Part shown: positions 15,474 to 53,929 of the stretch, in pieces
Layout: each line of letters starts with the position of its first letter
Numbering within the stretch: the stretch's first letter is position 1
NCBI GenBank assembly: GCA_017553505.1
Contig: JAFZLD010000009.1
Span: 84,254 to 148,253 of the forward strand
Length of the DNA: 64,000 nucleotides
Reading direction: 5' to 3'
Origin: Lachnospiraceae bacterium
GTDB taxonomy: Bacteria > Bacillota > Clostridia > Lachnospirales > Lachnospiraceae
Made by a program: the position numbers and the translations under genes
The notes under the pieces: generated by a model
The model's input: the letters and a program-made list of their open reading frames with translations, nothing else
Database searches by the model: none
What the model was told of the DNA's origin: nothing

Positions 15474-15704
15474 TTAATCGCAAGAGTATCCGGGTTCTTT
15501 GTACAGGTTTTCTTTGTCAGGAACAATCTTTTTGTCCCAGACTGATTCTTTCCAGTCGTCTTCGGCTATTTCTTTAATGGCTACCGAAACGCTTGATGTC
15601 TTGCAGCCAAGAGTTTCTGCTATTACATCAGCTATTTTCTCGGCACAAGCCTTCTTTTGTTCATCACTCCTGCCCGGAAAGCAGTTGATCTCAACATGTG
15701 GCAT
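15474..15704 (-). CDS. 4-oxalocrotonate tautomerase-family protein
   Basis: A 76-residue protein beginning Met-Pro-His-Val-Glu. After Met removal, Pro1 would be the catalytic base that defines the tautomerase superfamily. The helix SDEQKKACAEKIADVIAETL and the strand SVSVAIKEI follow in the order expected for 4-OT monomers, and the length is slightly above the usual 60-65. The start at 15704 is chosen for the Pro1 and for AAGGAGG six bases upstream; a longer frame exists but would bury Pro1. The substrate is unknown. Its upstream region is array U, a mirror-symmetric set of inverted repeats. Confidence 0.85.
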   Translation of the reverse strand: MPHVEINCFPGRSDEQKKACAEKIADVIAETLGCKTSSVSVAIKEIAEDDWKESVWDKKIVPDKENLYKEPGYSCD

Positions 15705-16120
15705 GGGCGCCTCCTTTATAAATTTGAAGTTGTTCTCTTTGACATGCGAATCTGATATTGAGTCAAATTTGCGTGTCCACATCTGCGTGACCAAAAAGTT
15801 AAAAGCATGCGAATTTCGTGCCTATTCTTTTCCTCATGTATGTATCTATTACATATTCGAAACGCGAACATGCGAATAATGATTCATGATGTTTTTGCAT
15901 GTATTACCTTACATGCTTATTCTGCTCGAGGGTCACTTCGCATGTATTCATTTGCAACCAATCCCAAATATGAACATGCGTATTTAGCTTCGTTGAGATC
16001 TCGCATGTCTTAACCAATAATCATGTAAAAATCCATACACGTATATTCCAACCACTTGTCTGCTCGCATGTAATAATATCCATAAACAGGATATCGGCCG
16101 TACAAATCTCGATTTCTGTA
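15705..16120. other. Non-coding region carrying array U
   Basis: This 416-bp gap separates the 2H-phosphoesterase stop from the tautomerase start, both on the minus strand. No convincing gene is present. The repeat array at 15742-16071 fills most of it and stops short of both coding regions. No clear promoter was found for the tautomerase gene. Confidence 0.8.
15742..16071. repeat. Array U: six phased 35-bp inverted-repeat units, mirror-symmetric
   Basis: Six 35-bp units lie at 15742-15776, 15805-15839, 15868-15902, 15911-15945, 15974-16008 and 16037-16071. Each unit is flanked by inverted copies of TTCGCATGT (ACATGCGAA on the left, TTCGCATGT on the right) around a variable 17-bp interior. 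Gaps between units are 28, 28, 8, 28 and 28 bp, so the period is 63 bp except at the centre. The twelve CATG-like cores are spaced 29/34/29/34/29/14/29/34/29/34/29 and are exactly mirrored about 15906.5. The best arms are in units 3 and 5; the weakest are the left arm of unit 6 and the right arm of unit 2. The function is unknown. Phased binding sites for a DNA-binding protein, or a string of RNA hairpins, are the two main options. Confidence 0.85.
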
Positions 16121-16627
16121 TCATCCTTTGAGTTGCACCGACATAATATGCCTGGTAGGCCAGAACTCATATAGGTGGAGCGTGGTAACTGTTCCGGTTG
16201 GAATCGGCAGTTCGCTTAATACTATCTGTGTGGCCTCGGCTATTACGTCGGGCTTGTCTATTATCATTGTAGTGTGGGCCGACCAGCCAAATGGGTCTTC
16301 GCTGTCCATGAATTCGTCCTTCAAAAGAAGCATTTCTTTGCTCACTTCGGGTGCCACAAAAAGAACATCGTTCGCAGGCAGTCGGAAAAGGCCTACGTGG
16401 TTAAACTCCGCCCGGAAAGGCTTGTGAGTGTCGGATATTCGGCGAAGGCGCTCCTTGAGTTCTTCTTCTTTGGCTGTGTTGTAGGAGCCCATGGTGAAAT
16501 GCATGGGGATGTCCTTGGTCTGAACGCCGCTAAAGCCTTTTTCGTATAATTTGTTCTGTATTCCGGACAGGAGTTTCTCCGTGTCGTCATCATATCCCGC
16601 AAGGACGTATAAAGCCTTGTCTGCCAT
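16121..16627 (-). CDS. 2'-5' RNA ligase superfamily (2H phosphoesterase) protein
   Basis: A 168-residue 2H phosphoesterase. The two catalytic H-x-T/S-x repeats are visible as His-Phe-Thr-Met near residue 43 and His-Thr-Thr-Met near residue 121. Together they act as acid and base on cyclic 2',3'-phosphates or 2',5'-linkages. Bacterial members include ThpR/LigT-type cyclic phosphodiesterases, but the cellular role is often unknown. It follows the GNAT gene by 22 bp on the same strand and is the last gene before array U. Confidence 0.82.
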   Translation of the reverse strand: MADKALYVLAGYDDDTEKLLSGIQNKLYEKGFSGVQTKDIPMHFTMGSYNTAKEEELKERLRRISDTHKPFRAEFNHVGLFRLPANDVLFVAPEVSKEMLLLKDEFMDSEDPFGWSAHTTMIIDKPDVIAEATQIVLSELPIPTGTVTTLHLYEFWPTRHIMSVQLKG

Positions 16628-16649
16628 GGTATTATCTCTCCTGATTCAT

Positions 16650-17120
16650 TCAATATTTGTAGCGCATGTCGCGGTATCTGTGTTCTTGGTCCTTAAAGCC
16701 GACCTTGGCGTAGATCGGGTAGCCTGCGTCGGTAGCTGAGAGGTCGATGCGGCCCAGACCTCTTCTTTTGCCATATTCGACAAGGTTCTTCATAAGCTGG
16801 GTGCATATTCCCTGCCCGCGATAAGCAGGCTCTGTGTAGACGCTCAGGACGTCGGCGTACAGGCCGTTTAAGAGGATGGAATTAGCGGGCATTTCGATGA
16901 TGTGCAGGTATGCAACGGACACGATTCTGTCGCCTTCCTTGGCCACAAAAGCAATCAGCTCGGTGCCGAGCTTGCGATTGAAATAGTCAGGGAGCTGTGC
17001 TTCCATGCCTTTACGCTCTTCGTCGGTAACCGACCCAAAATCATCTATCATATATTCGATACGCATGCGTATCAGTTCGTTAATGTCTTCCCTGGTAGCT
17101 TCACTGTATACAATACTCAT
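16650..17120 (-). CDS. GNAT family N-acetyltransferase
   Basis: A 156-residue acetyltransferase. The acetyl-CoA loop is VYTEPAYRGQGICTQLMKNL, and the C-terminal LSATDAGYPIYAKVGFKDQ matches motif B/C of the family. The N-terminal region (YSEATREDINELIRMRIEYM) is typical of GNATs annotated for small molecules or proteins. The substrate is unknown. It is 18 bp downstream of a small coiled-coil gene. Confidence 0.87.
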   Translation of the reverse strand: MSIVYSEATREDINELIRMRIEYMIDDFGSVTDEERKGMEAQLPDYFNRKLGTELIAFVAKEGDRIVSVAYLHIIEMPANSILLNGLYADVLSVYTEPAYRGQGICTQLMKNLVEYGKRRGLGRIDLSATDAGYPIYAKVGFKDQEHRYRDMRYKY

Positions 17121-17138
17121 GTTTATTCTTCTGCCTGC

Positions 17139-17390
17139 CTAGTGCCAGTATGGCTTCTGGTCCTTGTGACGGAACTCTTTCATTTTTTCTTTGTATATGC
17201 CCACAATCGAGTCGTACTTCTCTATCACCGCCGCCTTCGCGTTACCGGTGCTCTTCATCTCTTCGAGGGCTTCCTCAAGCTCCTTGAGGTTGTCCTGCGC
17301 ATTATCTTTATAATTGTTCGACATGTTTATCTGCAGCCGCAGGATGATGCTGTCGAGTTGCTTTTCTGCTTTGGATTTAAATAGGCCCAT
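17139..17390 (-). CDS. Small coiled-coil hypothetical protein
   Basis: An 83-residue, highly charged protein that is almost all predicted helix; the heptad-like stretch NLKELEEALEEMK suggests a coiled coil. There is no signal peptide, metal motif or known domain. The length and charge resemble small cytosolic helical proteins of unknown function common in Lachnospiraceae. It lies between FliB-like and GNAT genes with short gaps. Confidence 0.6.
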   Translation of the reverse strand: MGLFKSKAEKQLDSIILRLQINMSNNYKDNAQDNLKELEEALEEMKSTGNAKAAVIEKYDSIVGIYKEKMKEFRHKDQKPYWH

Positions 17391-17405
17391 GGTAGTCCTC
17401 CCGTT

Positions 17406-18494
17406 TTACATCCTTATAATCGGGTGCTCGTCCATGTACCTTTCGGTTGCAAGGACATTGGGCACCGAGTGTTCCAGTTCTCTTGCGTATAAGTAAGTGA
17501 AGTAAATTACATCTTCGGTACTGATGGCGCCGTGCGTCTTGAAGTGCGCCATGGCAAAATCTTTTATGTGAAGGCAGGCGGCCACGGCGAGCTGGGCCTG
17601 GCCGTAATAGTACTCGTCGTAGGCGGAGCCGCAGAAATAGATGTAGAGGAAATAGTGAAGGATTTGCTCGGTCACAATGTCCCAGTCCATGCCTTGAGAA
17701 GAAAAGGAAGCCCGCATTTCACTGTCCAGGGTAGCCTCATCCTGCCGGCGATCTTTGTACAGTGCTTTCTCGGTCAGCTTAAGCACTTCTTTAAACTCGT
17801 CGCCGGTGTATTCCCACTTTTTCATGACTTTGAAGAGCTCGTAACGGAGGTCGGGAGTGATTTCCAAAGGCTTATAGTCTGCTGCTATTGCGCCTTCAAC
17901 ATCCACTGATTCTATGTCGCCGTCACTCATTAAAACGTCATCGGTTTGATTCTGGAATTCTCTTGCGATTGCAAGAATCCTTCCTGCTTTCGTGGCAAAA
18001 GAAAGCGTCCTGTTAAGCACGATTTTAAAGAATTCTTCACGAAGCGAATACAACTTTATGTAAACCAGCTGCTCTTCACTGTCATACTCTTCCGTATCAG
18101 TTTCTCTATCTTCAACCGTTCTATACGTCACGGGTTCTTTGCGTTTAAGAAGGTACTGAGCAACTTCCGGGCAGGAAATGCTGAGGGAATACTCGCGCAC
18201 ATTTTCAAATTCCTCGATGTGGCGCGGGAAAAGCCTGCACGTGTTGCATAAGATATCTTCGCCATGCGCCAGAATCAACTTGCAAAGCCCTTTTTCGTTA
18301 AGGTTTTTACAGCGTTTTTCTTTGTCCTGATAAAAGCATTCGTGTTTAAAATCAACAGTCTCAATCTTCTTGTCTCGATACCGCTTTAATGCGTCTGTAT
18401 CAATTTCTATCTGCCAGCCGGCGCAGCAGGTCTGCGGACATTTGTCGGCTATGCACACAAAATCATCGTAGTAATCGGGGTAGGTACGTTTCAT
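17406..18494 (-). CDS. fliB: FliB-like lysine-N-methylase (Cys-rich)
   Basis: A 362-residue protein matching the flagellin lysine-N-methylase family. The N-terminus carries the Cys motif DKCPQTCCAGW, and further Cys pairs occur in RCKNLNEKGLCKL and ILCNTCRLFPR, probably binding an iron-sulphur centre as in the related YkgJ group. The remaining two thirds is helical. In Salmonella, FliB methylates flagellin lysines, but many Clostridia homologues lie away from flagellar genes and may have other targets. No flagellar gene is in this window, so the protein target is uncertain. Confidence 0.8.
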   Translation of the reverse strand: MKRTYPDYYDDFVCIADKCPQTCCAGWQIEIDTDALKRYRDKKIETVDFKHECFYQDKEKRCKNLNEKGLCKLILAHGEDILCNTCRLFPRHIEEFENVREYSLSISCPEVAQYLLKRKEPVTYRTVEDRETDTEEYDSEEQLVYIKLYSLREEFFKIVLNRTLSFATKAGRILAIAREFQNQTDDVLMSDGDIESVDVEGAIAADYKPLEITPDLRYELFKVMKKWEYTGDEFKEVLKLTEKALYKDRRQDEATLDSEMRASFSSQGMDWDIVTEQILHYFLYIYFCGSAYDEYYYGQAQLAVAACLHIKDFAMAHFKTHGAISTEDVIYFTYLYARELEHSVPNVLATERYMDEHPIIRM

Positions 18495-18515
18495 ATGTTA
18501 AATTCTCCTATGCGG

Positions 18516-18521
18516 ATTATA
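18516..18521 (-). promoter_or_regulatory. -10 box of the FliB-like gene
   Basis: On the minus strand TATAAT occurs 22 bp before the start codon. No consensus -35 hexamer is seen at 17 bp, so promoter strength is unclear. Confidence 0.45.
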
Positions 18522-18565
18522 CCATAAGTGCCGCGCAGCTAGTGGGTATTTCTTATTTTTTTAAG

Positions 18566-18606
18566 ACAAAAAAATACCTCCACCACATTTCTGCAGTGAA
18601 GGTATT
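18566..18606 (-). terminator. Terminator after the second chemoreceptor gene
   Basis: On the minus strand a stem forms between ATACCTTCAC and GGTGGAGGTAT, followed by TTTTTTT. It lies 19 bp past the chemoreceptor stop. Confidence 0.8.
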
Positions 18607-18624
18607 AATCTTTGTAAACAATTA

Positions 18625-20094
18625 TTACTTGTTTCCGCTTCTGCTGATTTCCAGAATCTTATTGAGAATATCCTTAGTGGCAGCCATGTCCTTCTTGCAG
18701 TCTTCGCTAATCTCGATGGCGGACTGGGAAGATGCCGCAACTTCTTCGGATGTGGCTGATAGGTTGCTGATGGCGTCCATGACTGCGGTGTTGGCTGTTA
18801 CACAGGCATCAACGTTGTCGGAGATTTTGGACGCTCTGGTGGTGAGGTCGGAGACCTTTTCGAGGATGACTTCGAACTTCTCACCGGTGCGGGCGATGAT
18901 TTCGCCTTGTTCGTTGGCGGATTCAACGCTTCGCTCCATGTTCTTGGAGGCGGTGTTGACCTTATCGAGAAGGTCATCGATGGTGGAAGCGATTTGCTCG
19001 GCGGATTGCTTGGTGTGCTCGGAGAGTTCTCGTATTTCGTCCGCAACGACCGCAAAGCCTTTTCCTGCTTCTCCCGCTCTGGCCGCTTCGATGGAGGCGT
19101 TTAAAGCAAGGAGGTTGGTCTGTCCCGATATAGAAAGAATTGCGGCTACGATATCTTTTACCGTTCCCGCGGACTTCTGAAGGTTTGTGGTCATTTCAGC
19201 GGTCTCTTGGTTGATGACGGAAGCTTCCTGAGCCTTAGTTGTGAGTTCTTTTACTAAAGTGTTGCCGTCTTTAATGTTGTCGGTAACTTCGTCTGCGTTG
19301 CTACGCATTTCGGTTGACTGATGGGCTATGTCCTCAAGCGATTCCGTGATGTTGGCATTCATTTCGGTCTGAGTCTGGATAGCCTCGGCAGTTAACGTCA
19401 CGGATTGTGATATTTCCTCGGAAGCGTCGGCACTGGATGTAACCTTCAAAGAAAGTGACTCCATAGCTTCGTTGGCTTCTTCAAGCTTCTCGCCGATTTG
19501 GATGCCTATGGACTTAATGACCTCGGCATCTTCTTTTTGCTGCCTTGCGGCTTCCTGAATCTCGTCAATGGTCTCGGCGTTTTGTCTGTTGCTTAACCGC
19601 ACATAAAATACTGCCATCAAAGCCAGCAACAAAGCATAAACCACGTCGGTGAAAACCATGTTCTTTCTTTCGGAAGGATCCGCAGCCAGTGATAAATACA
19701 GCACTGCAAACAGCAAATTGATGGCCACTACGGAGCATGCCGTAATAATTGTCAGCTTGGGGTCTTTGTAGAGCAGCACCAAAATCAGCAGTCCGGGTCC
19801 GAACGCCCACAGATAAGGCACGTGCACGATGCCCAGTATTACCACCAGGTAGTTAGCTATCATGCAACCCATAATCAGATATTTGCCCTTCTCGTCGTGG
19901 CTAAACTTTATGTAGCTGAAGATAAAAAGCGCCAGCACAATGAATTGCAATACCAACATTGCAGTTGTGTTCAAAACGCCCACTCTGTCGGCTCTGTAGA
20001 CGATGGTGGAAAGAATTTCAAAGACATTTATGATGCAGGCCAGTTTGAAGGCCAGCAGGTTGCTTTCGTAGATTTGCTTTTCTTGCAGAGTCAT
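18625..20094 (-). CDS. Methyl-accepting chemotaxis protein with polytopic membrane sensor
   Basis: A 489-residue chemoreceptor. Instead of an extracellular Cache domain, the first 190 residues form about six hydrophobic segments, so sensing probably occurs in or at the membrane. A coiled-coil signalling domain follows, with the conserved tip [20 protein letters not shown] and [13 protein letters not shown]. No HAMP domain is obvious. The ATG at 20094 precedes [10 protein letters not shown] and is a better start than an earlier ATG at 20130, although ribosome-site spacing is long. No che genes are adjacent. The stimulus is unknown. Confidence 0.87.
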
Positions 20095-20174
20095 ATTTTT
20101 CACCGATCCTTTCATAAAATACAGTAGCATGCAATGATTAAACTACCGCTAACTCGGTGCTTTCGGGGCAAAAG

Positions 20175-20212
20175 AAAACCCTCACTTCATTTCTGAAATG
20201 AGGGCTGTTTTC
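20175..20212 (-). terminator. Terminator after the three-TM protein gene
   Basis: CCCTCA and TGAGGG form the base of a stem with the inner pair TTCA/TGAA, and the minus strand then runs TTTTC-TTTTG. It is located just past the stop at 20220. The same CCCTC/GAGGG stem type closes the ppdK gene about 1 kb away. Confidence 0.75.
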
Positions 20213-20219
20213 AAAACTC

Positions 20220-20954
20220 TTATTCGGCGTCGAGCCACTTGTTCACAAAAATGTCCGGTTCGTCCTTATGGCTAAACTTCACAATCAGCGTGTCGGTAGC
20301 GGAATCGTAAGTCCATTGCTCCATGGTAGTCTTATAGTTCTTGCCATCCTTCTTTCCGTCCGGCGTCCACATCTTACTGTAGCACAATGTTTCGGACTCC
20401 AAATCCTTCATCAACACCGGAATCGCCTGATCCACTATGGCTTTTCTTTGTTTTTGATCCATGTTGTATTTATATTTCTGCGGCCAAAGATCGTATACCA
20501 CATCGTAAATAATGTACCCGTATGCGTAAATGGCAGTGTCGCCGTCAGAGGTTACGCGCTTGTAACGCTCTTTCTTTTGCATCACTTCCTCGATGTAAAC
20601 TTCGGGCGTGTAGGCTTCTCTCGCCTTATCAACCTTCGCGGAATAAACCATCTTTAAAATAGCGTCCAATGCGAGGGGGATAAGCGGCAAAAGAATAATC
20701 CATTTGGGCATGTCCAGCCTGAATACGCGGACAATGCTGTATATCCAGAGCGCGGCGTAAGCTATATATCCTATGATTGCGAATATCTTGATGAAGATTC
20801 CGGTCAGTAAAGCCGCTCCTACTCCATCGATGCCGTGCCCGTGCCTGTTGGCGGATACATCCGCGATGAGCTTCGCAAATAACGCTATCAGGAAGGGAAG
20901 CGCCACGCATATTGCCAAAAGAATGTAGGTGATTGTTCTGCTTGATTTGTCCAT
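20220..20954 (-). CDS. Hypothetical membrane protein with C-terminal soluble domain
   Basis: A 244-residue protein. Three hydrophobic segments fill the first 110 residues (about 9-31, 45-70 and 80-108), followed by a soluble, charged domain rich in Tyr and Lys, including YGYIIYDVVYDLWPQKYKYNM. No catalytic motif or known family is recognised. It has its own terminator and lies between a chemoreceptor gene and ppdK with no clear operon partner. Confidence 0.65.
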   Translation of the reverse strand: MDKSSRTITYILLAICVALPFLIALFAKLIADVSANRHGHGIDGVGAALLTGIFIKIFAIIGYIAYAALWIYSIVRVFRLDMPKWIILLPLIPLALDAILKMVYSAKVDKAREAYTPEVYIEEVMQKKERYKRVTSDGDTAIYAYGYIIYDVVYDLWPQKYKYNMDQKQRKAIVDQAIPVLMKDLESETLCYSKMWTPDGKKDGKNYKTTMEQWTYDSATDTLIVKFSHKDEPDIFVNKWLDAE

Positions 20955-21094
20955 ATTTTATCTGCCTTTACTATTCATATTGAATTCCCGGTTTTCCGTT
21001 CATAAGTAAATTGTACACCCTTCGAGGAGTTTTCTCCATGAACAGATTGGCAAGATAATGGGGGGTATTTTGCCGGAATCGGTGCATTTCTGAG

Positions 21095-21220
21095 TTACTT
21101 CTTAGCATTTGCAATAACCACATTCATAGGCTCAACTTCAATCTTTTCCCAAACCTTTTCTATAACGTAAGGTTCGTTGGCAAGGTAATCGTCAAGTTGT
21201 GCGCTTGGCTTTTCCGGACA
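21095..21220 (-). pseudogene. Possible gene remnant downstream of ppdK
   Basis: Immediately after the ppdK terminator the minus strand reads an open, protein-like stretch (DDYLANEPYVIEKVWEKIEV then EPMNVVIANAKK and a TAA stop at 21095). Codon use looks natural, but no start codon with a ribosome site can be found; the frame runs back into the terminator hairpin. It looks like the 3' end of a gene whose 5' part was lost. The family is not recognised. Confidence 0.4.
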
Positions 21221-21258
21221 AAAAAAGACCCTCGCTTCATTGCTGAAATGAGGGTCTT
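21219..21258 (-). terminator. ppdK terminator
   Basis: On the minus strand AAGACCCTC pairs with GAGGGTCTT and a run of seven T follows. The hairpin starts about 17 bp past the stop of ppdK. Confidence 0.85.
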
Positions 21259-21274
21259 GATCTGCTATAACTTA

Positions 21275-23899
21275 TTATTTGTTATTGATAGCAGCCTGTG
21301 CTGCTGCAAGTCTTGCAATCGGAACACGGTAAGGTGAGCAGCTTACGTAGTCGAGGCCAATCTTGTGGCAGAACTCTACGGAAGTGGGGTCGCCGCCGTG
21401 CTCACCGCAGATACCGCAGTGAAGGTTAGGTCTCTGAGACTTACCTTTCTCGATAGCGATTTCCATGAGCTGGCCTACACCGCTCTGGTCAAGCTTAGCG
21501 AAGGGATCGTTCTCGAAAATCTTAGCCTTGTAGTAAGCTTCAAGGAACTTACCTGCGTCATCACGGGAGAAGCCGTAGGTCATCTGGGTTAAGTCGTTAG
21601 TACCGAAGCAGAAGAATTCAGCTTCCTTGGCGATTTCATCGGCAGTAAGAGCTGCACGAGGGATTTCGATCATGGTACCTACTTCGTACTTGAGGGCTAC
21701 GCCGGAAGCTTTGATTTCAGCTTCTGCGGTCTCGTTAACGGTCTTCTTAACGTATGTGAACTCCTTAACGTCGCCGGTAAGGGGAATCATAATCTCGGGC
21801 TCAACCTTCCAGTCAGCATGTGCCTTCTGAACGTTGATGGCTGCACGGATGATAGCCTTGGTCTGCATAACTGCGATTTCAGGATAAGTTACGGTCAAAC
21901 GGCATCCTCTGTGACCCATCATAGGGTTGAATTCCTTAAGGTTCTCGATGATAGCCTTAATCTGTTCTACGGTCTTACCCTTAGCCTTAGCAAGCTTCTC
22001 GATGTCTTCAGCTGCTGTGGGTACGAACTCGTGAAGCGGGGGATCAAGGAAACGGATGGTAACGGGGTTACCTTCCATAGCGAGGAACAACTTCTCGAAG
22101 TCGCCCTGCTGAAGAGGAAGAATCTTCTCAAGAGCTTCTTCACGCTCTTCCTTGGTATCGGAACAGATCATCTCACGGAATGCATCGATACGGTTCTCTT
22201 CGAAGAACATGTGCTCGGTACGGCAAAGACCGATACCTTCTGCACCGAGTTCACGAGCCTTCTGAGCATCACGAGGAGTGTCTGCGTTAGTACGAACTTT
22301 AAGCTTACGGTACTTGTCAGCCCAAGCCATGATGCGGCCGAACTCACCTGCGATGGTAGCGTCAACGGTTCTGATAGCGCCATCGTAGATAAGACCTGTG
22401 GTACCGTCAAAAGAAATCATATCGCCTTCGGTGTAGGTCTTACCGCCGAGGGTGAATGTCTTAGCTTCTTCATTCATGATGATATCGGAGCAACCGGATA
22501 CACAGCAGGTACCCATACCACGAGCAACAACTGCTGCGTGAGAGGTCATACCGCCGCGAACGGTGAGGATACCCTGAGCGGCCTTCATACCTTCGATATC
22601 TTCGGGGCTGGTCTCAAGACGAACAAGAACTACCTTCTCGCCTCTTGCTGCCCAATCCTTGGCATCGTCTGCAGTAAATACGATCTTACCGCAAGCAGCA
22701 CCGGGTGCTGCGCCGAGGGCCTTACCGATAACCTTAGCTGTAGCAACTGCATCCTTGTCAAACTGAGGATGAAGAAGGGTGTCAAGGTTACGGGGATCGA
22801 TCATTGCAACTGCTTCTTCTTCGGTTCTCATGCCTTCATCTACAAGGTCGCAAGCAATCTTGAGTGCAGCCTGAGCGGTTCTCTTACCGTTACGTGTCTG
22901 AAGCATGTAGAGCTTACCGTGTTCAACGGTGAACTCCATATCCTGCATATCTCTGTAATGGTTCTCTAAGTTCTGGCAAACTTTCTTGAACTGCTCGAAA
23001 GCTTCGGGGAACTTCTGCTCCATTTCAGTAATCTTCATAGGTGTACGAACACCTGCAACTACGTCTTCACCCTGTGCATTGGTAAGGAACTCTCCGAAAA
23101 GTCCCTTCTCACCTGTAGCGGGGTTACGGGTAAATGCTACACCGGTACCACAGTCATCACCCATGTTACCGAATGCCATGCTCTGTACGTTAACAGCGGT
23201 ACCCCATGAATAAGGGATATCGTTGTCGCGGCGGTAAACGTTAGCACGGGGATTGTCCCATGAACGGAATACTGCCTTTATAGCTTCTTCAAGCTGAACT
23301 CTGGGATCGGTGGGGAAGTCCTCACCAAGCTTAGCCTTGTATTCAGCCTTGAATTGATTAGCGAGTTCTTTAAGATCTTCGGCTGTAAGTTCAACGTCCT
23401 GAGTAACGCCCTTACGAGCCTTCATCTGATCGATTAATTCTTCAAAGTACTTCTTGCCGACTTCCATAACAACGTCGGAGAACATCTGAATGAATCTTCT
23501 GTAGCAGTCCCATGCCCAGCGAGGATTGCCGGACTTCTCTGCCAATGTATTAACAACGTCTTCATTCAATCCAAGGTTAAGGATTGTGTCCATCATACCG
23601 GGCATGGACGCACGTGCGCCGGAACGTACGGATACAAGAAGAGGATTCTCCTTGTCGCCGAATTTCTTACCTGTCATTGCTTCAAGTTTAAGCACATACT
23701 CATCAATCTGTGCCTGAATTTCGGAATTGATCTTCTTTCCGTCTTCGTAGTACTGGGTACAAGCTTCTGTAGTGATTGTGAATCCCTGGGGTACAGGCAT
23801 GCCGATGTTGGTCATCTCTGCAAGGTTAGCGCCCTTACCGCCAAGAAGATTACGCATGTCAGCTGAACCTTCCTCAAAAAGGTAAACCCATTTTGTCAT
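21275..23899 (-). CDS. ppdK: Pyruvate, phosphate dikinase
   Basis: An 874-residue enzyme that interconverts pyruvate, ATP and Pi with PEP, AMP and PPi. In anaerobes it often works in glycolysis in place of, or beside, pyruvate kinase. The N-terminal ATP-grasp domain begins WVYLFEEGSADMRNLLGGKG. The central phospho-carrier His lies in GGMTSHAAVVARGMGTCCVSG near residue 454. The C-terminal PEP-binding barrel carries the Cys motif HCGICGEHGGDP near residue 830. The length is the normal 870-880. It is a single-gene unit with its own promoter (TTGCAT-17-TATAAT), a palindrome in the leader, and a terminator. Confidence 0.98.
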   Translation of the reverse strand: MTKWVYLFEEGSADMRNLLGGKGANLAEMTNIGMPVPQGFTITTEACTQYYEDGKKINSEIQAQIDEYVLKLEAMTGKKFGDKENPLLVSVRSGARASMPGMMDTILNLGLNEDVVNTLAEKSGNPRWAWDCYRRFIQMFSDVVMEVGKKYFEELIDQMKARKGVTQDVELTAEDLKELANQFKAEYKAKLGEDFPTDPRVQLEEAIKAVFRSWDNPRANVYRRDNDIPYSWGTAVNVQSMAFGNMGDDCGTGVAFTRNPATGEKGLFGEFLTNAQGEDVVAGVRTPMKITEMEQKFPEAFEQFKKVCQNLENHYRDMQDMEFTVEHGKLYMLQTRNGKRTAQAALKIACDLVDEGMRTEEEAVAMIDPRNLDTLLHPQFDKDAVATAKVIGKALGAAPGAACGKIVFTADDAKDWAARGEKVVLVRLETSPEDIEGMKAAQGILTVRGGMTSHAAVVARGMGTCCVSGCSDIIMNEEAKTFTLGGKTYTEGDMISFDGTTGLIYDGAIRTVDATIAGEFGRIMAWADKYRKLKVRTNADTPRDAQKARELGAEGIGLCRTEHMFFEENRIDAFREMICSDTKEEREEALEKILPLQQGDFEKLFLAMEGNPVTIRFLDPPLHEFVPTAAEDIEKLAKAKGKTVEQIKAIIENLKEFNPMMGHRGCRLTVTYPEIAVMQTKAIIRAAINVQKAHADWKVEPEIMIPLTGDVKEFTYVKKTVNETAEAEIKASGVALKYEVGTMIEIPRAALTADEIAKEAEFFCFGTNDLTQMTYGFSRDDAGKFLEAYYKAKIFENDPFAKLDQSGVGQLMEIAIEKGKSQRPNLHCGICGEHGGDPTSVEFCHKIGLDYVSCSPYRVPIARLAAAQAAINNK

Positions 23900-23944
23900 A
23901 TTCTTTTTCTCCCTCTATGAAAATTGCCGATGCGTAGAAAACAA

Positions 23945-23962
23945 CCTGTACATGTGTACAGG
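23945..23962. promoter_or_regulatory. Palindromic operator candidate in the ppdK leader
   Basis: CCTGTACA-tg-TGTACAGG is an 8-bp perfect inverted repeat with a 2-bp centre. It lies 18-40 bp downstream of the -10 box on the ppdK strand, within the transcribed leader, where a repressor could block elongation or initiation. The cognate regulator is unknown. Confidence 0.5.
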
Positions 23963-23979
23963 ATGCTCGCACAGAACAT

Positions 23980-24008
23980 ATTATATCACAAGAATGTCCG
24001 CCATGCAA
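23980..24008 (-). promoter_or_regulatory. ppdK promoter
   Basis: On the minus strand, TTGCAT (24003-24008) and TATAAT (23980-23985) are separated by 17 bp, matching a sigma-70/SigA promoter about 80 bp before the ppdK start. Confidence 0.75.
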
Positions 24009-24085
24009 GAACATGGCTCTTGACAAAAAAACGAATTGAATTGTCGCTTTTGTATCTCGTATCGTCAAAAGTTCCAAAAATTTTA

Positions 24086-25093
24086 TCAATTCGAAAAATT
24101 TGAGACACCTTTAACCGAGTCGCGAATGATTATCTCTCCGCTTATGACTCTGCGTATACGGTCGGTGTTCGGGTTCTTAATCTTCTCTTCCATAAGACCC
24201 ACGGCCGCGCGGCTCATTTCACGCATGTCTACGCTGAAAGTGGTAAGCTTCGGGTCGCAGAAAGTGGCGAATATATAGTCGTCAAAGCCCACAACTGAGG
24301 CATCTTCGGGGATGCGGAGCCCTTTCTTTTGCAGATATTTCACAAGGTGGTAGGCGGTCTCGTCGCAGTTGCAGACAAAAGAATCCGGCATGTCTTCCGG
24401 GAGTTTGAACTCGTCGGTTAAGATGCCTTCGGCGTCGCGGTCGGGGATGAGGTAATCCTCGCGGGTCGCGATTCCGTGCTGCATGAGAGCCTTCACGTAG
24501 CCTAAATATCTGTCGGTGATGGAGTTAGTCGCGCTCACGGTGCCGACAAAAGCAATCTTGCGGTGACCTTTGTTAATAAGATAAGTGGTGAGCATGTGGG
24601 AGCCGTAGACATTGTCGCCGACTACGCAGTCGATGATGTCTTCGGGGGTGTAATTGTCCACAAATACCACGGGAAGGTCGAGGTGAAGGACCTTGTCCAT
24701 GCAGGACTTGATGATGGGGCCTAAGACTATGGCGCCGTCAACCTTGCCGGAGGTGATTGCGCCGGGCAGATTGCCGCTTGTCTCGGCCTTGTGGCTTAAT
24801 ATCTCGAGGGTGCAGTCGTGGCCCCGCTTCATAAATTCGGAGGCGATGCACCCAAAAAGTCTTGAATAAAAGGAATTCTCTGAGAAATATGTCTCGGATA
24901 CCATGACGCGGATGCTTAAGGATTTGTCGGGGGACTTGGGGGCGTAGTTGTAGCCCAGTTCGTCGGCAATCTTAAGAATCTCGGCGCGAAGGCTGTCGCT
25001 GACGCCTTCGTGGCCGCTTATGGCCTTGGATACCGATACGGCACTGATATTCATTTTCTTCGCAATGTCGCGCATCGTAACGTTCTTGCTCAT
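24086..25093 (-). CDS. LacI-family transcriptional regulator of the mannan locus
   Basis: A 335-residue LacI/GalR regulator. The N-terminal helix-turn-helix is in TMRDIAKKMNISAVSVSKAI (about 6-25), followed by the hinge LGYNYAPKSP. The C-terminal periplasmic-binding-protein fold with VVGFDDYIFATFCDPKLTTF is the effector domain. It is the last gene of a GH130-manA-lacI operon (16-bp gap after manA), so its effector is most likely a mannose-containing oligosaccharide or sugar phosphate. A likely operator is the AAACGTTT palindrome in the CE2-like promoter (31718-31725). The TTAAGTTAC repeats before GH130 are another candidate. Confidence 0.92.
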   Translation of the reverse strand: MSKNVTMRDIAKKMNISAVSVSKAISGHEGVSDSLRAEILKIADELGYNYAPKSPDKSLSIRVMVSETYFSENSFYSRLFGCIASEFMKRGHDCTLEILSHKAETSGNLPGAITSGKVDGAIVLGPIIKSCMDKVLHLDLPVVFVDNYTPEDIIDCVVGDNVYGSHMLTTYLINKGHRKIAFVGTVSATNSITDRYLGYVKALMQHGIATREDYLIPDRDAEGILTDEFKLPEDMPDSFVCNCDETAYHLVKYLQKKGLRIPEDASVVGFDDYIFATFCDPKLTTFSVDMREMSRAAVGLMEEKIKNPNTDRIRRVISGEIIIRDSVKGVSNFSN

Positions 25094-25109
25094 GATGGTC
25101 GTGCCTCTG

Positions 25110-26063
25110 TTATGCCTCTCTTCCGGGAGTGGCTGCGATAATTGTCATGTTACCTGTAAGTGTAAGGGGCGCCTGCCCTGCGGTTAAGAGGAAGCTGTCG
25201 CCTTTCTTAATGGAGATTCCGTCTGCGGTACCTTCGCCTTCGGTGACAAAGAATGTAGTGAAGGTGTCGCCTGCTTCGAAGGTCTCGGTGCCGGCTACGT
25301 TGATACGGAATTCGTCAAAGTACCTGCAGGATGCTATCTTGTGGGTTCCGGGAGCGTCGGGTGTTGATACTGCCTTGCAGTCGTCGCCTTCGACGTTGAT
25401 GGTGGCCTTGGCCTTCTCGGTGTGGAGCTCGCGTTTCTTACCGTCGCGGATGCGGTCGTAGTCGTAAATTCTGTAAGTAATGTCGGAATTCTGCTGGAGC
25501 TCTAAGAGCATCACGCCGCCTTTGATGGAATGCACGGTGCCTGCCTTAATAAAGAGGCAGTCGCCGGGATTGACCTTGACGGTGCGGATGAGCTCGCAGG
25601 TACGACCTTCGTCGATGAGCCTGTTAATCTCCTCCCTGGAGTGAGCGTTGTGGCCTGCGATGAGTTCTGAGTCGGGTTCGCAGTCGAGGACGTACCAGCA
25701 TTCGGTCTTGCCTGAAGCGCCGTTCTCATGATCTCTGGCGTACTCGTCGGTGGGGTGAACCTGTACGGACAAGTTGTCCTTGGCGTCGATTACCTTGAGG
25801 AGTAAGGGGAACTCACCAGTGGCGTTGCTCTTGCTTTGGCCCTTGGTGAAAAGTTCGGGGTGCTCGAGCCAGAGTTCGGAAAGCTTCTTACCCTTGTAAT
25901 CGCCGGTGATGCAGGTGCAGTCGCCGTGGGGGTGGGCGCTTATCTCCCAGCACTCTCCTGTCGTGGATGAGGGGATTGGATAGCCGTATTCTTTTGCCAA
26001 TTTATCGCCGCCCCAGATGAGGTCTTTAAATACCGGGGCGAAGAAAAGAATGTTATTGTTCAT
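25110..26063 (-). CDS. manA: Mannose-6-phosphate isomerase, class I
   Basis: A 317-residue type I phosphomannose isomerase that converts mannose-6-P to fructose-6-P. The zinc-binding cupin core is visible: LSVQVHPTDEYA contributes Gln and His, KTECWYVL the Glu, and IKAGTVHSIKGG a later His. The N-terminal LIWGGDKLAKEYGY is the family signature. It sits 27 bp after GH130 and 16 bp before the LacI gene. It would channel mannose released from mannan into glycolysis. Confidence 0.95.
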   Translation of the reverse strand: MNNNILFFAPVFKDLIWGGDKLAKEYGYPIPSSTTGECWEISAHPHGDCTCITGDYKGKKLSELWLEHPELFTKGQSKSNATGEFPLLLKVIDAKDNLSVQVHPTDEYARDHENGASGKTECWYVLDCEPDSELIAGHNAHSREEINRLIDEGRTCELIRTVKVNPGDCLFIKAGTVHSIKGGVMLLELQQNSDITYRIYDYDRIRDGKKRELHTEKAKATINVEGDDCKAVSTPDAPGTHKIASCRYFDEFRINVAGTETFEAGDTFTTFFVTEGEGTADGISIKKGDSFLLTAGQAPLTLTGNMTIIAATPGREA

Positions 26064-26090
26064 TGTGTTCAGAGTATATCCTTTGGGTCG

Positions 26091-27116
26091 TTACTGGAGG
26101 CCGAGGCTTGTGTCTACAGCGTTGGTAACGGAATTTTTCTTAATGTAGTCTACGACTTCGTCGACCTTGGTGAATGCGAGGCCTACGTAGGAGTCGGCGC
26201 AACCGTAGTAAAGGGCGATGCGGCCGGTCTCTGAGTCGTGGATGGTGGCGCAAGGGAAGCATACGTTGGGTACGAATCCGCGCTCTTCATATTCCTCTTC
26301 GGGAGTGAGGAGGAAGTTGGTACAACGATACTTAACAATCGAAGGGTTGTCAATGTCTAAGATGGCGCCGCCGATGGAATATACGTAACCGCTGCAGGTT
26401 CCGCATACACCGTGGTAGAAAAGGAGCCAGCCTTCGGTGGTCTCGATGGGAGCTGCGCCGCCGCCGATCTTAAGTGATTCCCACCACTCGCTTCCGCGGC
26501 TCATAACGTGACGATGATGTCCCCAGTATTCCATGTCGGGGCTTTCGCTTACGAAGATGTCGCCGAAAGGTGTGTGTCCGGAATCGGAAGGTCTGGAAAG
26601 CAACATGAACTTGCCGTTTATCTTACGAGGGAACAGCACTGCGTTTCTGTTAAAAGGAATGAAAGGATTCTCGATTCTGGTGAAGGTCTTGAAATCCTGA
26701 GTCTTAGCCATTCCGATTGATGCTCCGAAGAAATCGCCGCACCAGATAATATAATATGTATCTTCAACTTTAACAAGTCTGGGATCGTATGCGTAATTGG
26801 GCATGAAGGGCTCGCCTTTTTCATTGACGAACTGAACCTTCTCGGGCTCGAACTCCCAATGAATGGCATCCTTGGATCGTCCTAAATATACATAAGGGAT
26901 ACCGTTGGTCTGCTCGCCTCTGAATACGCCGATGAAGCCGTCTTCGTAAGGAGCTACCGCGCTGTTAAAGATACGTGCTACGCCTTCGATAGGGTTTCTC
27001 TTTATAATTGGATTCTCGCTGTATCTCCAGACAGGAGCATTCTTAAGTCCTGCGGGCTTGTCCTGCCAGGGCATGTTCTTAACTGCGGGGCTGTTTAAAA
27101 TCTTAACTTCACTCAT
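26091..27116 (-). CDS. GH130 beta-mannooligosaccharide phosphorylase
   Basis: A 341-residue five-bladed beta-propeller phosphorylase of family GH130. These enzymes cleave beta-1,4-mannosyl linkages with phosphate to give mannose-1-phosphate. The segments ARIFNSAVAPYEDGFIGVFR and YAYDPRLVKVEDTYYIIWCG hold the conserved active-site region and the propeller Asp residues. The ATG at 27116 is chosen because GAGAGGA lies nine bases upstream; a GTG at 27134 would overlap that site. Whether it prefers mannosyl-glucose or longer mannooligosaccharides cannot be told. It is the first gene of the manA-lacI operon. Confidence 0.9.
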   Translation of the reverse strand: MSEVKILNSPAVKNMPWQDKPAGLKNAPVWRYSENPIIKRNPIEGVARIFNSAVAPYEDGFIGVFRGEQTNGIPYVYLGRSKDAIHWEFEPEKVQFVNEKGEPFMPNYAYDPRLVKVEDTYYIIWCGDFFGASIGMAKTQDFKTFTRIENPFIPFNRNAVLFPRKINGKFMLLSRPSDSGHTPFGDIFVSESPDMEYWGHHRHVMSRGSEWWESLKIGGGAAPIETTEGWLLFYHGVCGTCSGYVYSIGGAILDIDNPSIVKYRCTNFLLTPEEEYEERGFVPNVCFPCATIHDSETGRIALYYGCADSYVGLAFTKVDEVVDYIKKNSVTNAVDTSLGLQ

Positions 27117-27171
27117 ATTGCATAATCCTCTCACATTTTGTTGTATTTGTCTTGTGTTGAATTCTTAATAA

Positions 27172-27362
27172 TAACTTAATTTAAGTTACAGTCAGAATTT
27201 GTTAGGTTTTTGTAACTTAACAAATCTCTTCCTATATCACAGTACTATCTTATCGGCGCAATTGCAAGTGTTTTCGGGAAAGTTTGTCAGAATGTGGCAA
27301 TGAGATTTTGTCGGGATTGTAGAGAATTGACAGAGGATTTGGTTTTTGTTAAGTTACAAAAA
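27172..27362. promoter_or_regulatory. GH130 promoter region with TTAAGTTAC repeats
   Basis: A perfect 17-bp palindrome, TAACTTAA-t-TTAAGTTA, lies at 27172-27188 between plausible -35 (CTGACT) and -10 (TATTAT) boxes on the minus strand. The 18-mer TTTGTTAAGTTACAAAAA occurs exactly at 27345-27362 on the plus strand and inverted at 27207-27224. Such paired sites could be bound by one regulator with DNA looping; the locus LacI protein is a candidate but the sites lack the usual central CG. Confidence 0.5.
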
Positions 27363-27452
27363 TTTATTGGTGGCGGGGTGGCGAAATTTGGGCGGTGCGG
27401 GCGTTTTACGGTACGCGGTCGGACGGGTTGAGGCACGTGAGGAGGTTCTTTT

Positions 27453-27806
27453 CCCACCTTATGGTAGTTTTTCTGCGCAAGGTGTGAAAGGTTAGGTTTA
27501 CATAACTTTGTCATTTCGCACCTTTTGTTGATTTTGGCTTCTGAGGTGGGAATCTTAGGACTTCTTCAATGGTATGAATTCACACCTTTTTGTCGATTTA
27601 AGTCATAAGGTGTGAATTGTAGCTGTTGTGTTGAGCTTTCTTTTCCCACCTTTTGACGGATATGGGGCTTAAGGTGTGAAATATGATTGGGGTAATGCTT
27701 ACTATTTTCCCACCTTATGATAGAAACCTGCTCCGAGGTGCGATTTACGTAAAAAAGGAAGTTTCCTGCTGTCCCACCTTATCCATAAAAGTAGCTTGGA
27801 GGTGGG
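27453..27806. repeat. Array V: six 34-bp inverted-repeat units at an exact 64-bp period
   Basis: Units are at 27453-27486, 27517-27550, 27581-27614, 27645-27678, 27709-27742 and 27773-27806. Starts are exactly 64 bp apart five times in a row. Each unit has a left arm C-N-CACCTT and a right arm RAGGTG-N-G around an 18-bp variable interior. The arms extend outward into TTT/AAA, giving a half-site TTTCNCACCTT repeated twelve times. The 30-bp separators between units share no sequence beyond the flanking AA and TT. At the second arm position the two arms of a unit fail to pair in four of six units, which argues against selection for an RNA stem. It lies in non-coding DNA between the mannan genes. 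Function unknown. Confidence 0.88.
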
Positions 27807-27832
27807 ATTTTCATCTTTGAATGAAGAATAAT

Positions 27833-28116
27833 CCCATCCATATTTGATGGAAATTGCCATGGAAGGGGGCGACGCGGATGCTAAATGTTAGGTTTTACCC
27901 TTCCATATAGCTAACTTTGGCATGTAGATGGGGTTTCGATGAAGCCATGATAGAAAATACCCCCCTCCATATGAGCATTATTGGCTCCGTGGTAGGGGGA
28001 ATATTTCTTTTCCGCCCCTGCCATTTCTTTGTTTAATGCAACATGGATGGGGTGGCTGACGAAATGATATACGAAAATGCCCCATCCATATATGTAATTC
28101 TGTCAATTTGGTAGGG
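27833..28116. repeat. Array W: five 35-36 bp inverted-repeat units, about 65-bp period
   Basis: Units are at about 27833-27867, 27898-27932, 27962-27997, 28016-28051 and 28081-28116. The half-site is CCCWNCCAT (right arms read ATGGNWGGG), with 17-18 bp interiors. Successive right arms are 65, 65, 54 and 65 bp apart, so one central gap is 11 bp short. The fourth arm position differs between left and right arms in all five units. The arm resembles the array V arm (CCCACCTTATG against CCCATCCATAT), so the two adjacent arrays may share an origin. Function unknown. Confidence 0.75.
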
Positions 28117-28133
28117 TTCGCAGACTTTTTGAG

Positions 28134-28181
28134 GCAAAAGAAGCCCCTTCCTTTAAGGTCAAACAGGCAAAAAGGAAGGGG
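28134..28181 (-). terminator. GH36 terminator
   Basis: CCCCTTCCTTT and AAAGGAAGGGG form an 11-bp stem around a 16-nt loop, followed on the minus strand by CTTCTTTT. It lies 25 bp past the GH36 stop and starts 63 bp from the last array W unit. Confidence 0.8.
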
Positions 28182-28205: not shown

Positions 28206-30398
28206 CTAGACTTCTTCAAGATGGATCAGCGTGGACTTGAAGTCGCCCCAGCTGCGGGGGATGGGGAGGCCGGCGTACATTAGGGTGTCGGCGCCGTAGT
28301 TGCGGCCGGATTCGCAGTCGCGGTAGGTCTTCTGCGGGTCGAGGCCTTGGAGGCAGAGGGTGCGCGACTTGAAGTTCGGGTGGTTGAGCACCTGAACGAA
28401 GGTCACGAGAATCTCGCGCTCGTCCTGCGACTTCACCATCCAGGCGTCGTATTCGCCGTTGTCGGCCAAAGAAGCCAGACGGTAATAGTCACCTTCGCGA
28501 ACGAGGTCATTGTACTTGTGATACTGCGCCACTTGAATCGGTATCTGGGCGCGGTCTTCCACCGAAATCTTGGTGATGTCGAGTTCGTAGCCGAAGGTGC
28601 CTGCGAGGGCGACGTGGCCGCGGGTCTTGAAAGGTGTGACGCGACCGACTGCGTGGTTGGGGCAATCGGAGACGTGGGCGCCCATTGTGGAAAGCGGATA
28701 AATCAGCGCTGTTCCTTCCTGAATGGAGAGGCGCTCGATGGCGTCGGTATCGTCGGAAGTCCAAATCTGCGGGCTGTAATAAAGCATGCCGGGATCGAAG
28801 CGAGCGCCGCCGCCGGAACAATTCTCTATCAATAAATCAGGAAACGTAGTAACCAGCTTCTCCTGCAGGCGATAAACTGCAAGCACATATCGATGATAAA
28901 GCTCGCCCTGTCTGTCGGCGGGAAGGCCTGCGCTGTAAAGGTCCGCAAGCTGGCGATTCATGTCCCACTTGAGGTATTCAATGTTGGCGCTCTTAAGAAC
29001 TGTCTCGATGCTATGCCAGGTATGCTCCCACACTTCGGGGCGGGTTAAGTCAAGCACGAGCTGGTTGCGCGAAAGTCCGGGCGCGCGCCCGGGTATCTGA
29101 ATCGCCCAGTCAGGGTGCGCTCTGTAAAGGTCTGAATCCGGGCTCACCATCTCGGGCTCCATCCAAATGCCGAACTTAAGGCCGAGCTTGTTAACTTCGT
29201 CCACGAGGTACTTTAGCCCGCCCGGCAACTTTTCTTCGTTGACCGTCCAGTCGCCGAGAGCCCTGTTGTCGTCGTAACGATTGCCGAACCAGCCGTCGTC
29301 CATAACGAGCATCTCGATGCCGAGTGCCGCCGCGTCTCTTGCTATAGAAAGAAGCTTCTCCGTATCAAAATTAAAGTAAGTCGCTTCCCAGTTATTAATA
29401 AGAATGGGGCGCTTTTTATGTAAGAATTTGCTTCTGATTAAGTGATTTCTGTACAGATTATGGAAGCTTCGTGTCATCGCTCCTAGGCCTTCAGCCGAGT
29501 ACGTCATTACTGCTTCGGGAGTGGCAAAAGAATCTCCCGCTTCAAGCTTCCACTTAAAGTTATAGGGGTTAATGCCCATCTCTGCATGAATAAAATTAAA
29601 CTGATCGAGGTCGGCCTGCGCTACGAAGTTACCTGAATAAATAAAATTGAAGCCGTAAACTTCGCCTTGCGTCTCCGTCAGGTTCTTGTCGGTAATGGCC
29701 ATAAAGGGATGTTCCTGGTGACTTGACTCGCCACGTCTTGAAGAAACTCCCTGGAAGCCGTGGGCAATCTTTCTAAACTCTTTGTGACGCTCTCGCGCCC
29801 ATGAGCCGTGAAGTGTAAGCAGATTATAATCTTTGTTCTCGAGGTTTAATGTGGTTGACATAACTCGAGTAATAAATACCGGGCTGGCACCGTCATTTAT
29901 AATCCGTGCGCTGCGTGTAATACAATCGGTATCGGCGAAAACTGAGTATGAAAGAATGACTGTGAGCTTAATAATAGGATCTCGTAAAGTCACTTCCAAC
30001 GTCTCAACCGACTTCTCGTCACCAAAAGTTGCGGGTAATCCCTCGAGCGGATTCTTGCCCTTATAAATCTTATGGTTTACATATTGAAGCTCGGTGGCAG
30101 TTGTCCCGTCGGCAAGTTCAATCTCAAGCGCGTGACTCCTGTAATCGCCGATTCCGCCCGTAGAATACTCAAAAGGAGCAAAATCAAGAAAGCTGTTCTT
30201 GTCCTTAGTATTGACTCCCGGAAGGATATCGCCGTCGTAGAGCCTTGACACATAACGTGCGTTATCTATATCATTTCTAATCTTGTGGCCGTAGTAATAA
30301 TGAATCAGATAGCCGAAGTCATCGTCTATTCCGAATATATAGCTGGTATGAGGAGTGTCTAACTTAAAGATTCTTTCTGCGTCGTTGTAAGTAATCAT
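28206..30398 (-). CDS. GH36 alpha-galactosidase
   Basis: A 730-residue alpha-galactosidase of family GH36, the long form of four-domain clostridial and Bifidobacterium enzymes. The N-terminal beta-supersandwich is followed by a (beta/alpha)8 barrel. The nucleophile Asp lies in YLKWDMNR near residue 480 and the acid/base Asp in WTSDDTDAIERL near residue 546. The MVMDDGWFGNRYDD and LKFGIWMEPEMVSPDSDL segments are family signatures. It would remove alpha-1,6-galactose from galacto(gluco)mannan oligosaccharides. No signal peptide is present, so it acts in the cytosol. It is probably co-transcribed with the CE2-like esterase gene upstream. Confidence 0.95.
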   Translation of the reverse strand: MITYNDAERIFKLDTPHTSYIFGIDDDFGYLIHYYYGHKIRNDIDNARYVSRLYDGDILPGVNTKDKNSFLDFAPFEYSTGGIGDYRSHALEIELADGTTATELQYVNHKIYKGKNPLEGLPATFGDEKSVETLEVTLRDPIIKLTVILSYSVFADTDCITRSARIINDGASPVFITRVMSTTLNLENKDYNLLTLHGSWARERHKEFRKIAHGFQGVSSRRGESSHQEHPFMAITDKNLTETQGEVYGFNFIYSGNFVAQADLDQFNFIHAEMGINPYNFKWKLEAGDSFATPEAVMTYSAEGLGAMTRSFHNLYRNHLIRSKFLHKKRPILINNWEATYFNFDTEKLLSIARDAAALGIEMLVMDDGWFGNRYDDNRALGDWTVNEEKLPGGLKYLVDEVNKLGLKFGIWMEPEMVSPDSDLYRAHPDWAIQIPGRAPGLSRNQLVLDLTRPEVWEHTWHSIETVLKSANIEYLKWDMNRQLADLYSAGLPADRQGELYHRYVLAVYRLQEKLVTTFPDLLIENCSGGGARFDPGMLYYSPQIWTSDDTDAIERLSIQEGTALIYPLSTMGAHVSDCPNHAVGRVTPFKTRGHVALAGTFGYELDITKISVEDRAQIPIQVAQYHKYNDLVREGDYYRLASLADNGEYDAWMVKSQDEREILVTFVQVLNHPNFKSRTLCLQGLDPQKTYRDCESGRNYGADTLMYAGLPIPRSWGDFKSTLIHLEEV

Positions 30399-53907: not shown

Positions 53908-53929
53908 ACCTTTATAAAACAAATGTGAG

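Follow-up and report, generated by a model that had tools for sequence, protein, structure and literature searches.

Three arrays of inverted 8- to 9-bp half-sites, here called U, V, and W, were located in a 64,000-nucleotide stretch of a Lachnospiraceae genome (assembly GCA_017553505.1, contig JAFZLD010000009.1, positions 84,254 to 148,253; hereafter the window), and arrays of this kind were linked to one protein family, most copies of which lie beside an array of their own. The pairing of the family with phased arrays points to a mode of DNA marking or control by proteins that may not have been described before. No paper on the gene-array pair was found among open-licence PMC papers, a collection that leaves most subscription journals outside, and we know of no named system with these features.

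The arrays were detected with a chain scanner, which looks for units resembling hairpins, with 8-bp arms and up to two mismatches, and requires the arms to reappear at a set lag. Each of the three arrays contains six units of 35 to 36 bp, the spacing of which is fixed while interiors and separators have drifted. Array U (15742..16071) is built of 35-bp units with half-site ACATGCGAA that start at 15742, 15805, 15868, 15911, 15974, and 16037 (lags of 63, 63, 43, 63, and 63 bp); the left arm of the unit at 16037 is degenerate, was read by eye, and was missed by the scanner. Array V (27452..27807) is built of 36-bp units with half-site TCCCACCTT and a period of exactly 64 bp (starts at 27452, 27516, 27580, 27644, 27708, and 27772), and array W (27833..28180) of units of 35 to 36 bp with half-site CCCWWCCAT, starting at 27833, 27898, 27962, 28016, 28081, and 28145 (lags of 65, 64, 54, 65, and 64 bp). 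The lag from V to W is 61 bp, such that the two form one continuous block, and the last W unit (28145..28180) coincides with a terminator-like hairpin 3′ of a melibiase gene. Chain scores in the window were 31, 15, and 15, whereas no chain scored above 6 when the window was dinucleotide-shuffled 60 times. Tandem Repeats Finder at its default score gave no entry anywhere in the window, and no Rfam family matched in the arrays at gathering score. A first-pass annotation had proposed three arrays with a common architecture and different arm words, which the rebuilt coordinates and the chain scanner bore out; its unit details needed slight correction to six units per array, an exact 64-bp period in V, and a single V/W block. 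The shortened gaps that it described, by 20 and about 11 bp, are real and correspond to the 43-bp lag in U and the 54-bp lag in W. We conclude that the phased-array observation in the window is confirmed.

Further arrays with the same architecture and other half-sites are present in this genome. Exact TTATCSCAA/TTGSGATAA units numbered 32 in this genome (G000), 38 in sister genome G013, and 23 in G002, with 0 in the other 191 genomes searched, and TTATC arrays in this clade mostly have four units with lags near 71, 51, and 71 bp. When open reading frames beside TTATC-type arrays were compared, one protein family lay near the array in five of seven locus sets, three of the five being this clade and its two sisters. 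Two other clusters of open reading frames that spanned five locus sets were set aside, as their members in this genome lie kilobases from its array. The family proteins are about 260 to 300 amino acids long, the four members run against Pfam and NCBIfam matched no family there, and one member (L017) adjoins an array with a quite different word, TGACCC. A profile search returned nine family genes in this genome, and an array was found beside all nine. With linkage defined as a chain score of at least 8 within 500 bp of the gene, a qualifying array was present in other genomes at 21/29 loci plus 6/8 loci of a phylum sample (27/37). Under the same rule, control genes of 200 to 400 amino acids gave 2/191 in relatives and 14/237 in this genome, where two of the 14 matches were family genes and most others lay by arrays already known. 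Chunk controls gave 1/157 (units of 30 to 42 bp) and 3/157 (28 to 46 bp) in relatives and 12/214 in this genome. Arbitrary stretches of relatives yielded one weak chain in L069 to L088 (score 5; L073, G017) and one chain with uneven lags in L070 to L088 plus L104 to L123 (L119, G002). The array lay 5′ of the gene in 30/36 cases, 3′ in 5/36, and on both sides in 1/36. We conclude that gene and array are linked and that most copies lie beside an array of their own; the co-occurring gene family for which the annotation had proposed a search thus exists, nearly always with its own word per copy.

The nine paralogs in this genome are associated with eight words. One word, TTATCGCA, is common to two closely related genes (L191 and L193). 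The U word is gene-linked as ACATGCGA at L199 and the W word as CCCATCCAT at L195, and the other genes adjoin TGACCC (L192), CCTACTAAA (L194), TGGCGAAGT (L197), ATGCATAA (L198), and GCATCTAAA (L196, where a two-unit chain lies 285 bp off and is accompanied by six GCATCTA half-sites). Identity to family member P0001 is 23 to 30 per cent for most paralogs here and 79 per cent for its close relative L193. In all six pairs with an N-terminal identity of at least 0.57, three of which lie within the TTATC trio, the arms agreed at 7 to 9 of 10 bases, against an all-pair mean of 4.8. Taken with the lack of a significant correlation over all 36 proteins (see below), this pattern is what fast-changing specificity would give, but it does not prove binding. 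The family was found in 91/394 genomes, this one included (E 1e-30), and in 6/398 genomes of the phylum sample, five of them Lachnospiraceae (this one included) and one by the C-terminal domain only; because of the latter distribution, the family is placed mainly in Lachnospiraceae and some neighbours. At four loci (L230, L231, L233, and L234), contigs end 134 to 218 bp 5′ of the family gene, as if arrays break assemblies.

Spacing in the arrays follows the DNA helix. Lags in gene-linked arrays were mainly 51 to 54, 62 to 64, 70 to 75, 83 to 86, 94 to 95, and 106 to 108 bp, the exceptions being 57 and 111 bp once each and two lags of 38 bp in L223, which belong to a short repeat apart from the array. 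A common period of 10.7 bp fitted best (r = 0.68, from 56 distinct array-lag values that are not independent), and periods cluster near 53, 63 to 64, 74 to 75, and 84 to 86 bp, equivalent to five to eight helical turns. The unit, when left free at 20 to 60 bp, was most often 29 to 40 bp, and when it was held at 31 to 38 bp, separators stepped by about one turn. Moreover, when any lag from 40 to 129 bp was allowed in a sample made up of L002 and 853 kb of this genome, chains scoring at least 8 had lags of 43, 51 to 54, 61 to 65, 70 to 74, 84, 96, 99, 119, and 126 bp, and none had a lag of 44 to 50, 55 to 60, 66 to 69, or 75 to 83 bp; no chain reached 6.5 in three shuffles of the whole sample. 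In genome G298, which has at least six paralogs, each of the six has a different word, the periods are about 52, 53, 63, 64, 74, and 75 bp, and the period therefore belongs to the array and not to the species. The earlier suggestion that helical phase is kept within the arrays is thus matched by spacing that is quantised in helical turns.

Covariation between the left and right arms of units was tested by permutation in nine arrays or families, with unit starts entered by hand. The sets included 20 U units (without the degenerate unit at 16037), 14 W units (leaving out the unit at 28145, the L195 units, and an arm-less L023 unit), and six V units. No left-right covariation was detected in U (P = 0.90), W (0.83), or V (0.68), the outcome that the annotation had said would favour DNA, nor in the ATGSATAA family (0.61), CCTAC (1.0), or L229 (1.0); L235 gave a P value of 0.17. 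Beyond U, V, and W the absence held for most sets and not for all, as two of the nine showed some joint arm change (L219, P = 0.01; L227, P = 0.04), which may reflect gene conversion of one arm by the other or, with nine tests made, chance. Pairwise identity in own-clade families, including U, V, and W, was 0.29 to 0.35 for interiors, which is near random, and 0.78 to 0.88 for arms; interiors were more alike in some arrays (L235, 0.69; L229, 0.62). Orthologous arrays were aligned in nine comparisons of this genome with G013 or G002 (eight TTATC, one U), and sites had changed at 31/550 arm positions, 226/1433 other array positions, and 283/2428 positions of the 150-bp flanks, with no gap inside an arm. 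The pooled Fisher value for arm constraint (2e-10) is a guide only, as comparisons share loci. The half-sites are read as DNA because U, V, and W lack covariation and because, taken together, the arms evolve at a lower rate than the intervening DNA. We conclude that the arms overall are under stronger constraint than surrounding DNA.

Two AlphaFold2 models were made of the protein, the better one from 11 sequences with a mean predicted local distance difference test score (pLDDT) of 85. In the model, the N terminus consists of two long helices with a beta hairpin between them, and the C-terminal domain has the order alpha-beta-beta-beta-alpha-beta, as seen in the predicted secondary structure of residues 176 to 279 (pLDDT mostly 88 to 94). 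K148, E150, D180, E195, and H196 (P0001 numbering) are invariant in 46/46 proteins. By its modelled core order and the E, D, and E residues at 150, 180, and 195, the predicted C-terminal domain is PD-(D/E)XK-like, and these three residues would be expected to bind metal. PADLOC matched the C-terminal domain to the end of PDC-S68 in 9/9 members (best E values of 9.5e-19 to 3.5e-29) and matched the HEAT_CxxC_PDDEXK profile in 5/9 (0.005 to 1.5e-7), and PHROGs gave weak endonuclease and resolvase matches for the nine. No match to a transposase was obtained from Pfam and NCBIfam with four members or from PHROGs and PADLOC with nine. The C-terminal domain also ends long proteins of eight viral contigs, beside which no chain scored above 5, and occurs in plasmid genes labelled AAA family ATPase. 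On a phage-labelled human faecal contig (L208, MT839528.1), a family relative is followed by repeated GCAAC/GTTGC words when read by eye; the scanner reported a two-unit chain only, with a score of 6.

The linkage and the helical counting are most simply explained if each protein reads its own array. The arrays are accordingly best viewed as probable DNA platforms for an uncharacterised family with a helical N terminus and a PD-(D/E)XK-like domain. Two protomers would bind the inverted half-sites of one ~35-bp unit, and successive units, integer turns apart, would stack on one face of the DNA to form a regular nucleoprotein array. A gene-linked array, usually directly 5′ of its gene, would also control expression of that gene, dispersed arrays such as U and W would be further targets of the same protein, and arrays may grow or shrink by whole periods or whole turns while their interiors drift. 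The outcome of binding would most likely be regulation or marking of neighbouring DNA. Regulation was put first, followed by dispersal like that of repetitive extragenic palindromic (REP) elements and then by defence, because a position immediately 5′ of a gene is shared by the dispersed U arrays and the majority of gene-linked arrays. More tentatively, the proteins could conceivably be active nucleases with private DNA addresses, a paralog-specific marking system encoded in DNA: each paralog would evolve its word jointly with its neighbouring array, line up along that array at a fixed whole number of turns, and use dispersed copies to control, protect, or cut chromosome sites. The gene-array pairing ties an unnamed nuclease-like family of gut and rumen bacteria to a testable DNA code, with the questions of which protein reads which word and why the period comes in whole turns. 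Dozens of matched protein-site pairs could allow DNA recognition by the fold to be decoded, and intergenic DNA of a kind that seems meaningless in gut Lachnospiraceae may be accounted for by the pairing.

Several observations weigh against each protein reading its own array. No qualifying array lay within 500 bp at 8/29 loci of other genomes and 2/8 loci of the phylum sample; four of these ten loci have less than 220 bp of 5′ contig, and one, in G298, has its array 794 bp away. The TTATC genes L191, L193, and L210 have the array 3′ of the gene, an arrangement unsuited to simple autoregulation, and no cognate gene has been found so far for V. Over all 36 proteins, N-terminal similarity did not correlate significantly with arm similarity (rho = 0.06, P = 0.15), and in the U comparison alone the arms were no more conserved than the rest of the array (1/70 versus 3/260 sites changed), the whole array being more alike than its flanks (21/300). 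As to the domain, the canonical E-x-K lysine is missing, E195-H196-x-G being found in 46/46 proteins, and invariant K148 might substitute for it. Moreover, Foldseek gave no match in the PDB below an E value of 0.001; its weak matches include restriction-endonuclease-fold entries (3ijm, 1d02, 1y88, and R2 and arenavirus endonucleases) among unrelated folds.

Dispersal within the genome was seen for some words only, namely U, W, TTATC, ATGSATAA, and GCATCTAA. Genome-wide, the exact U pattern occurs at four loci and a control pattern at 0; the four are window U, the array linked to the U-word gene (locus G000:C19:63204), and two arrays on contig C22. From the end of each dispersed U array to the probable start codon of the gene that follows, the distances are 38, ~15, and 34 bp. 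The W word recurs at L195 (G000:C5:98439, beside the family gene), L059, and L023. Used as sequence queries, U returned a single match (67 per cent) besides its own sequence, V returned 19 bp besides its own, and W returned only itself. In many cases an array separates two co-directional genes or immediately precedes a gene on its 5′ side. Three array sites of this genome lack the array at the same site in G013, namely V/W, a GCATCTAA array at C22:189715, and a U array at C22:206803, and two of the three are empty in G002 too. At the V/W site, the stretch missing in G013 is 27402..28109 (flank identities of 97.6 and 94.9 per cent, with an uncertainty of 2 bp in the ends), G002 is likewise without V/W, and G013 keeps a hairpin similar to the last W unit without the rest of the block. 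Junctions read by eye showed no clear target-site duplication at the three G013-empty sites, V/W sharing only GG. Recent insertion of V/W was set aside, and loss is at least as likely, because no duplication is clear and the final right arm survives in part in the sister. G013 does have window U, and several TTATC arrays are common to this genome, G013, and G002.

The arrays could also belong to a mobile system of the kind formed by REPs and REP-associated tyrosine transposases (RAYTs), in which the nuclease-like gene and its array would be autonomous or domesticated and dispersed arrays would be non-autonomous derivatives spread by cutting and repair. This account would accommodate the occurrence of one word both beside a gene and dispersed, the patchy distribution of the gene, and the three array sites that are empty in G013, but it is unlikely given the lack of clear target-site duplications, which also sets the arrays apart from a transposon or miniature inverted-repeat transposable element, the finding that none of the dispersed arrays queried (U, V, and W) is a recent copy of another, and the overall conservation of arms at fixed sites. 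Excerpts of a study of RAYTs describe bacterial interspersed mosaic elements as regularly spaced REPs in alternating orientation and report selection for complementary mutations (PMC2817692). As far as those excerpts go, both systems have intergenic palindromic units, several repeat-flanked paralogous genes per genome, and dispersed repeats. Here, however, the protein is PD-(D/E)XK-like and not a Y1 HUH transposase, conservation is confined to the half-sites, units are spaced by set numbers of helical turns, arrays have multiple units, and U, V, and W lack left-right covariation where the excerpted study has complementary mutations. A defence or addiction device, in which the array would hold a nuclease inactive or aim it and phage or other foreign DNA that lacks or disturbs the array would be attacked, is rather improbable. 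The PDC-S68 and HEAT_CxxC_PDDEXK matches argue for it, as do the several paralogs per genome and their patchy distribution. PDC-S68 is itself only a candidate phage defence system in PADLOC, however, and is matched solely through the homologous C-terminal domain, its models being 1202 to 1273 positions long; furthermore, no partner gene is known, and the annotated neighbours of dispersed arrays are ordinary genes.

Were the units instead hairpins of a transcribed leader, forming a structured RNA, the position of many arrays between co-directional genes or directly 5′ of a gene would be expected, and the weak joint arm change in L219 and L227 would fit. This explanation is already disfavoured and we regard it as very unlikely, as covariation is absent in seven of the nine sets, spacing is quantised by the DNA helix, and Rfam recognised no family at gathering score. 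A CRISPR-like or simple functionless tandem repeat is likewise highly improbable: the regular period would fit, and the similar interiors of L235 and L229 suggest growth by tandem duplication, but own-genome families conserve half-sites and contain no identical whole repeats, and arms change more slowly than interiors in the pooled orthologous arrays. No cas gene was present among the neighbours run against Pfam, the rest of the genome not having been searched for cas.

Binders of repeated sites offer further parallels. Iteron and operator arrays of autoregulated DNA-binding proteins place repeated words by the binder's gene in helical phase, and the arrays described here likewise have repeated words next to the presumed binder's gene. 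They differ in their alternating inverted half-sites of up to 16 units, in their dispersed copies at unrelated genes, and in having a nuclease-like domain that is conserved and, within one genome, nine paralogs with eight words. A Bacillus inaquosorum contig (L140) carries several TTATCCC/GGGATAA elements. These resemble the SPbeta repeat bound by the repressor MrpR and may be SPBRE sites. MrpR has a tyrosine-recombinase fold and binds the 15-bp SPBRE motif in promoter regions, and it thus resembles the present family as an enzyme-fold protein acting as a binder of repeated sites, whereas the excerpts of its description mention no phased arrays (PMC10516654).

Array U is flanked by a tautomerase gene (15474..15704, minus strand; Pfam PF01361), the ATG start of which at 15704 is 38 bp from the array, and by the 3′ end of a LigT/2′-5′ RNA ligase-like gene (16121..16627, minus strand; PF13563 and PF02834). 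The V/W block lies 318 bp from the 5′ side of a GH130 mannooligosaccharide phosphorylase gene (26091..27134, minus strand; PF04041), and the 3′ end of the GH36 melibiase gene (28206..30398, minus strand; PF02065) points toward W. Upstream of the GH130 gene, TTAAGTTACA/TGTAACTTAA inverted repeats at 27181-27220 and 27345-27362 are perhaps operators of a LacI-type gene at 24086-25093. The word GGTTTACATAA(C) occurs in the window at 30429-30463 (minus strand), where it is repeated, along with GTTAACATAAC, upstream of the melibiase gene, and at 27495 (plus strand), and elsewhere in the separators of L027, L054, and L056 and at L024:1193, in or near arrays of different families. It was rejected as a mark common to arrays because, although several of them contain it, it is found as well in this melibiase upstream region and in further stretches of coding appearance.

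A contig scan of 84,980 genomes for three TTATC-type half-sites gave 61 stretches, some of which resemble chance matches or other repeats. The stretches come from this clade (Lachnospiraceae YSD2013 and RGIG6987) and from others, including a Saccharofermentans metagenome-assembled genome (MAG), another Clostridia MAG, and a Ruminococcaceae MAG at a period of close to 52 bp, as well as Bacteroidales and Treponema, in which the geometry differs. The TTATC array at L054 had no match in phages or plasmids. More arrays exist both in this genome and in related ones, an outcome in favour of the annotation, which named their absence as refuting. Its interpretation, a nucleoprotein scaffold read by its own binder, is supported in part. 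In four Bacteroidales loci (L124, L149, L153, and L172), arrays of TTATCGCA/TGCGATAA half-sites lie 55 to 59 bp 5′ of a gene of 481 amino acids, which is ATPase_2 (PF01637) in the three scanned; arrays of a comparable kind thus accompany another gene family as well. ATPase_2 was rejected as a general binder, as the one above-cutoff ATPase_2 gene of this genome has no array. A Moraxella locus (L179) has a direct array with a ~60-bp period and conserved whole repeats that looks CRISPR-like. Elsewhere in the window, a wide-unit scan (28 to 46 bp) flagged a chain scoring at least 8 within 500 bp of a gene near 51056-51982, and a class A RNase P RNA lies at 53922-54283.

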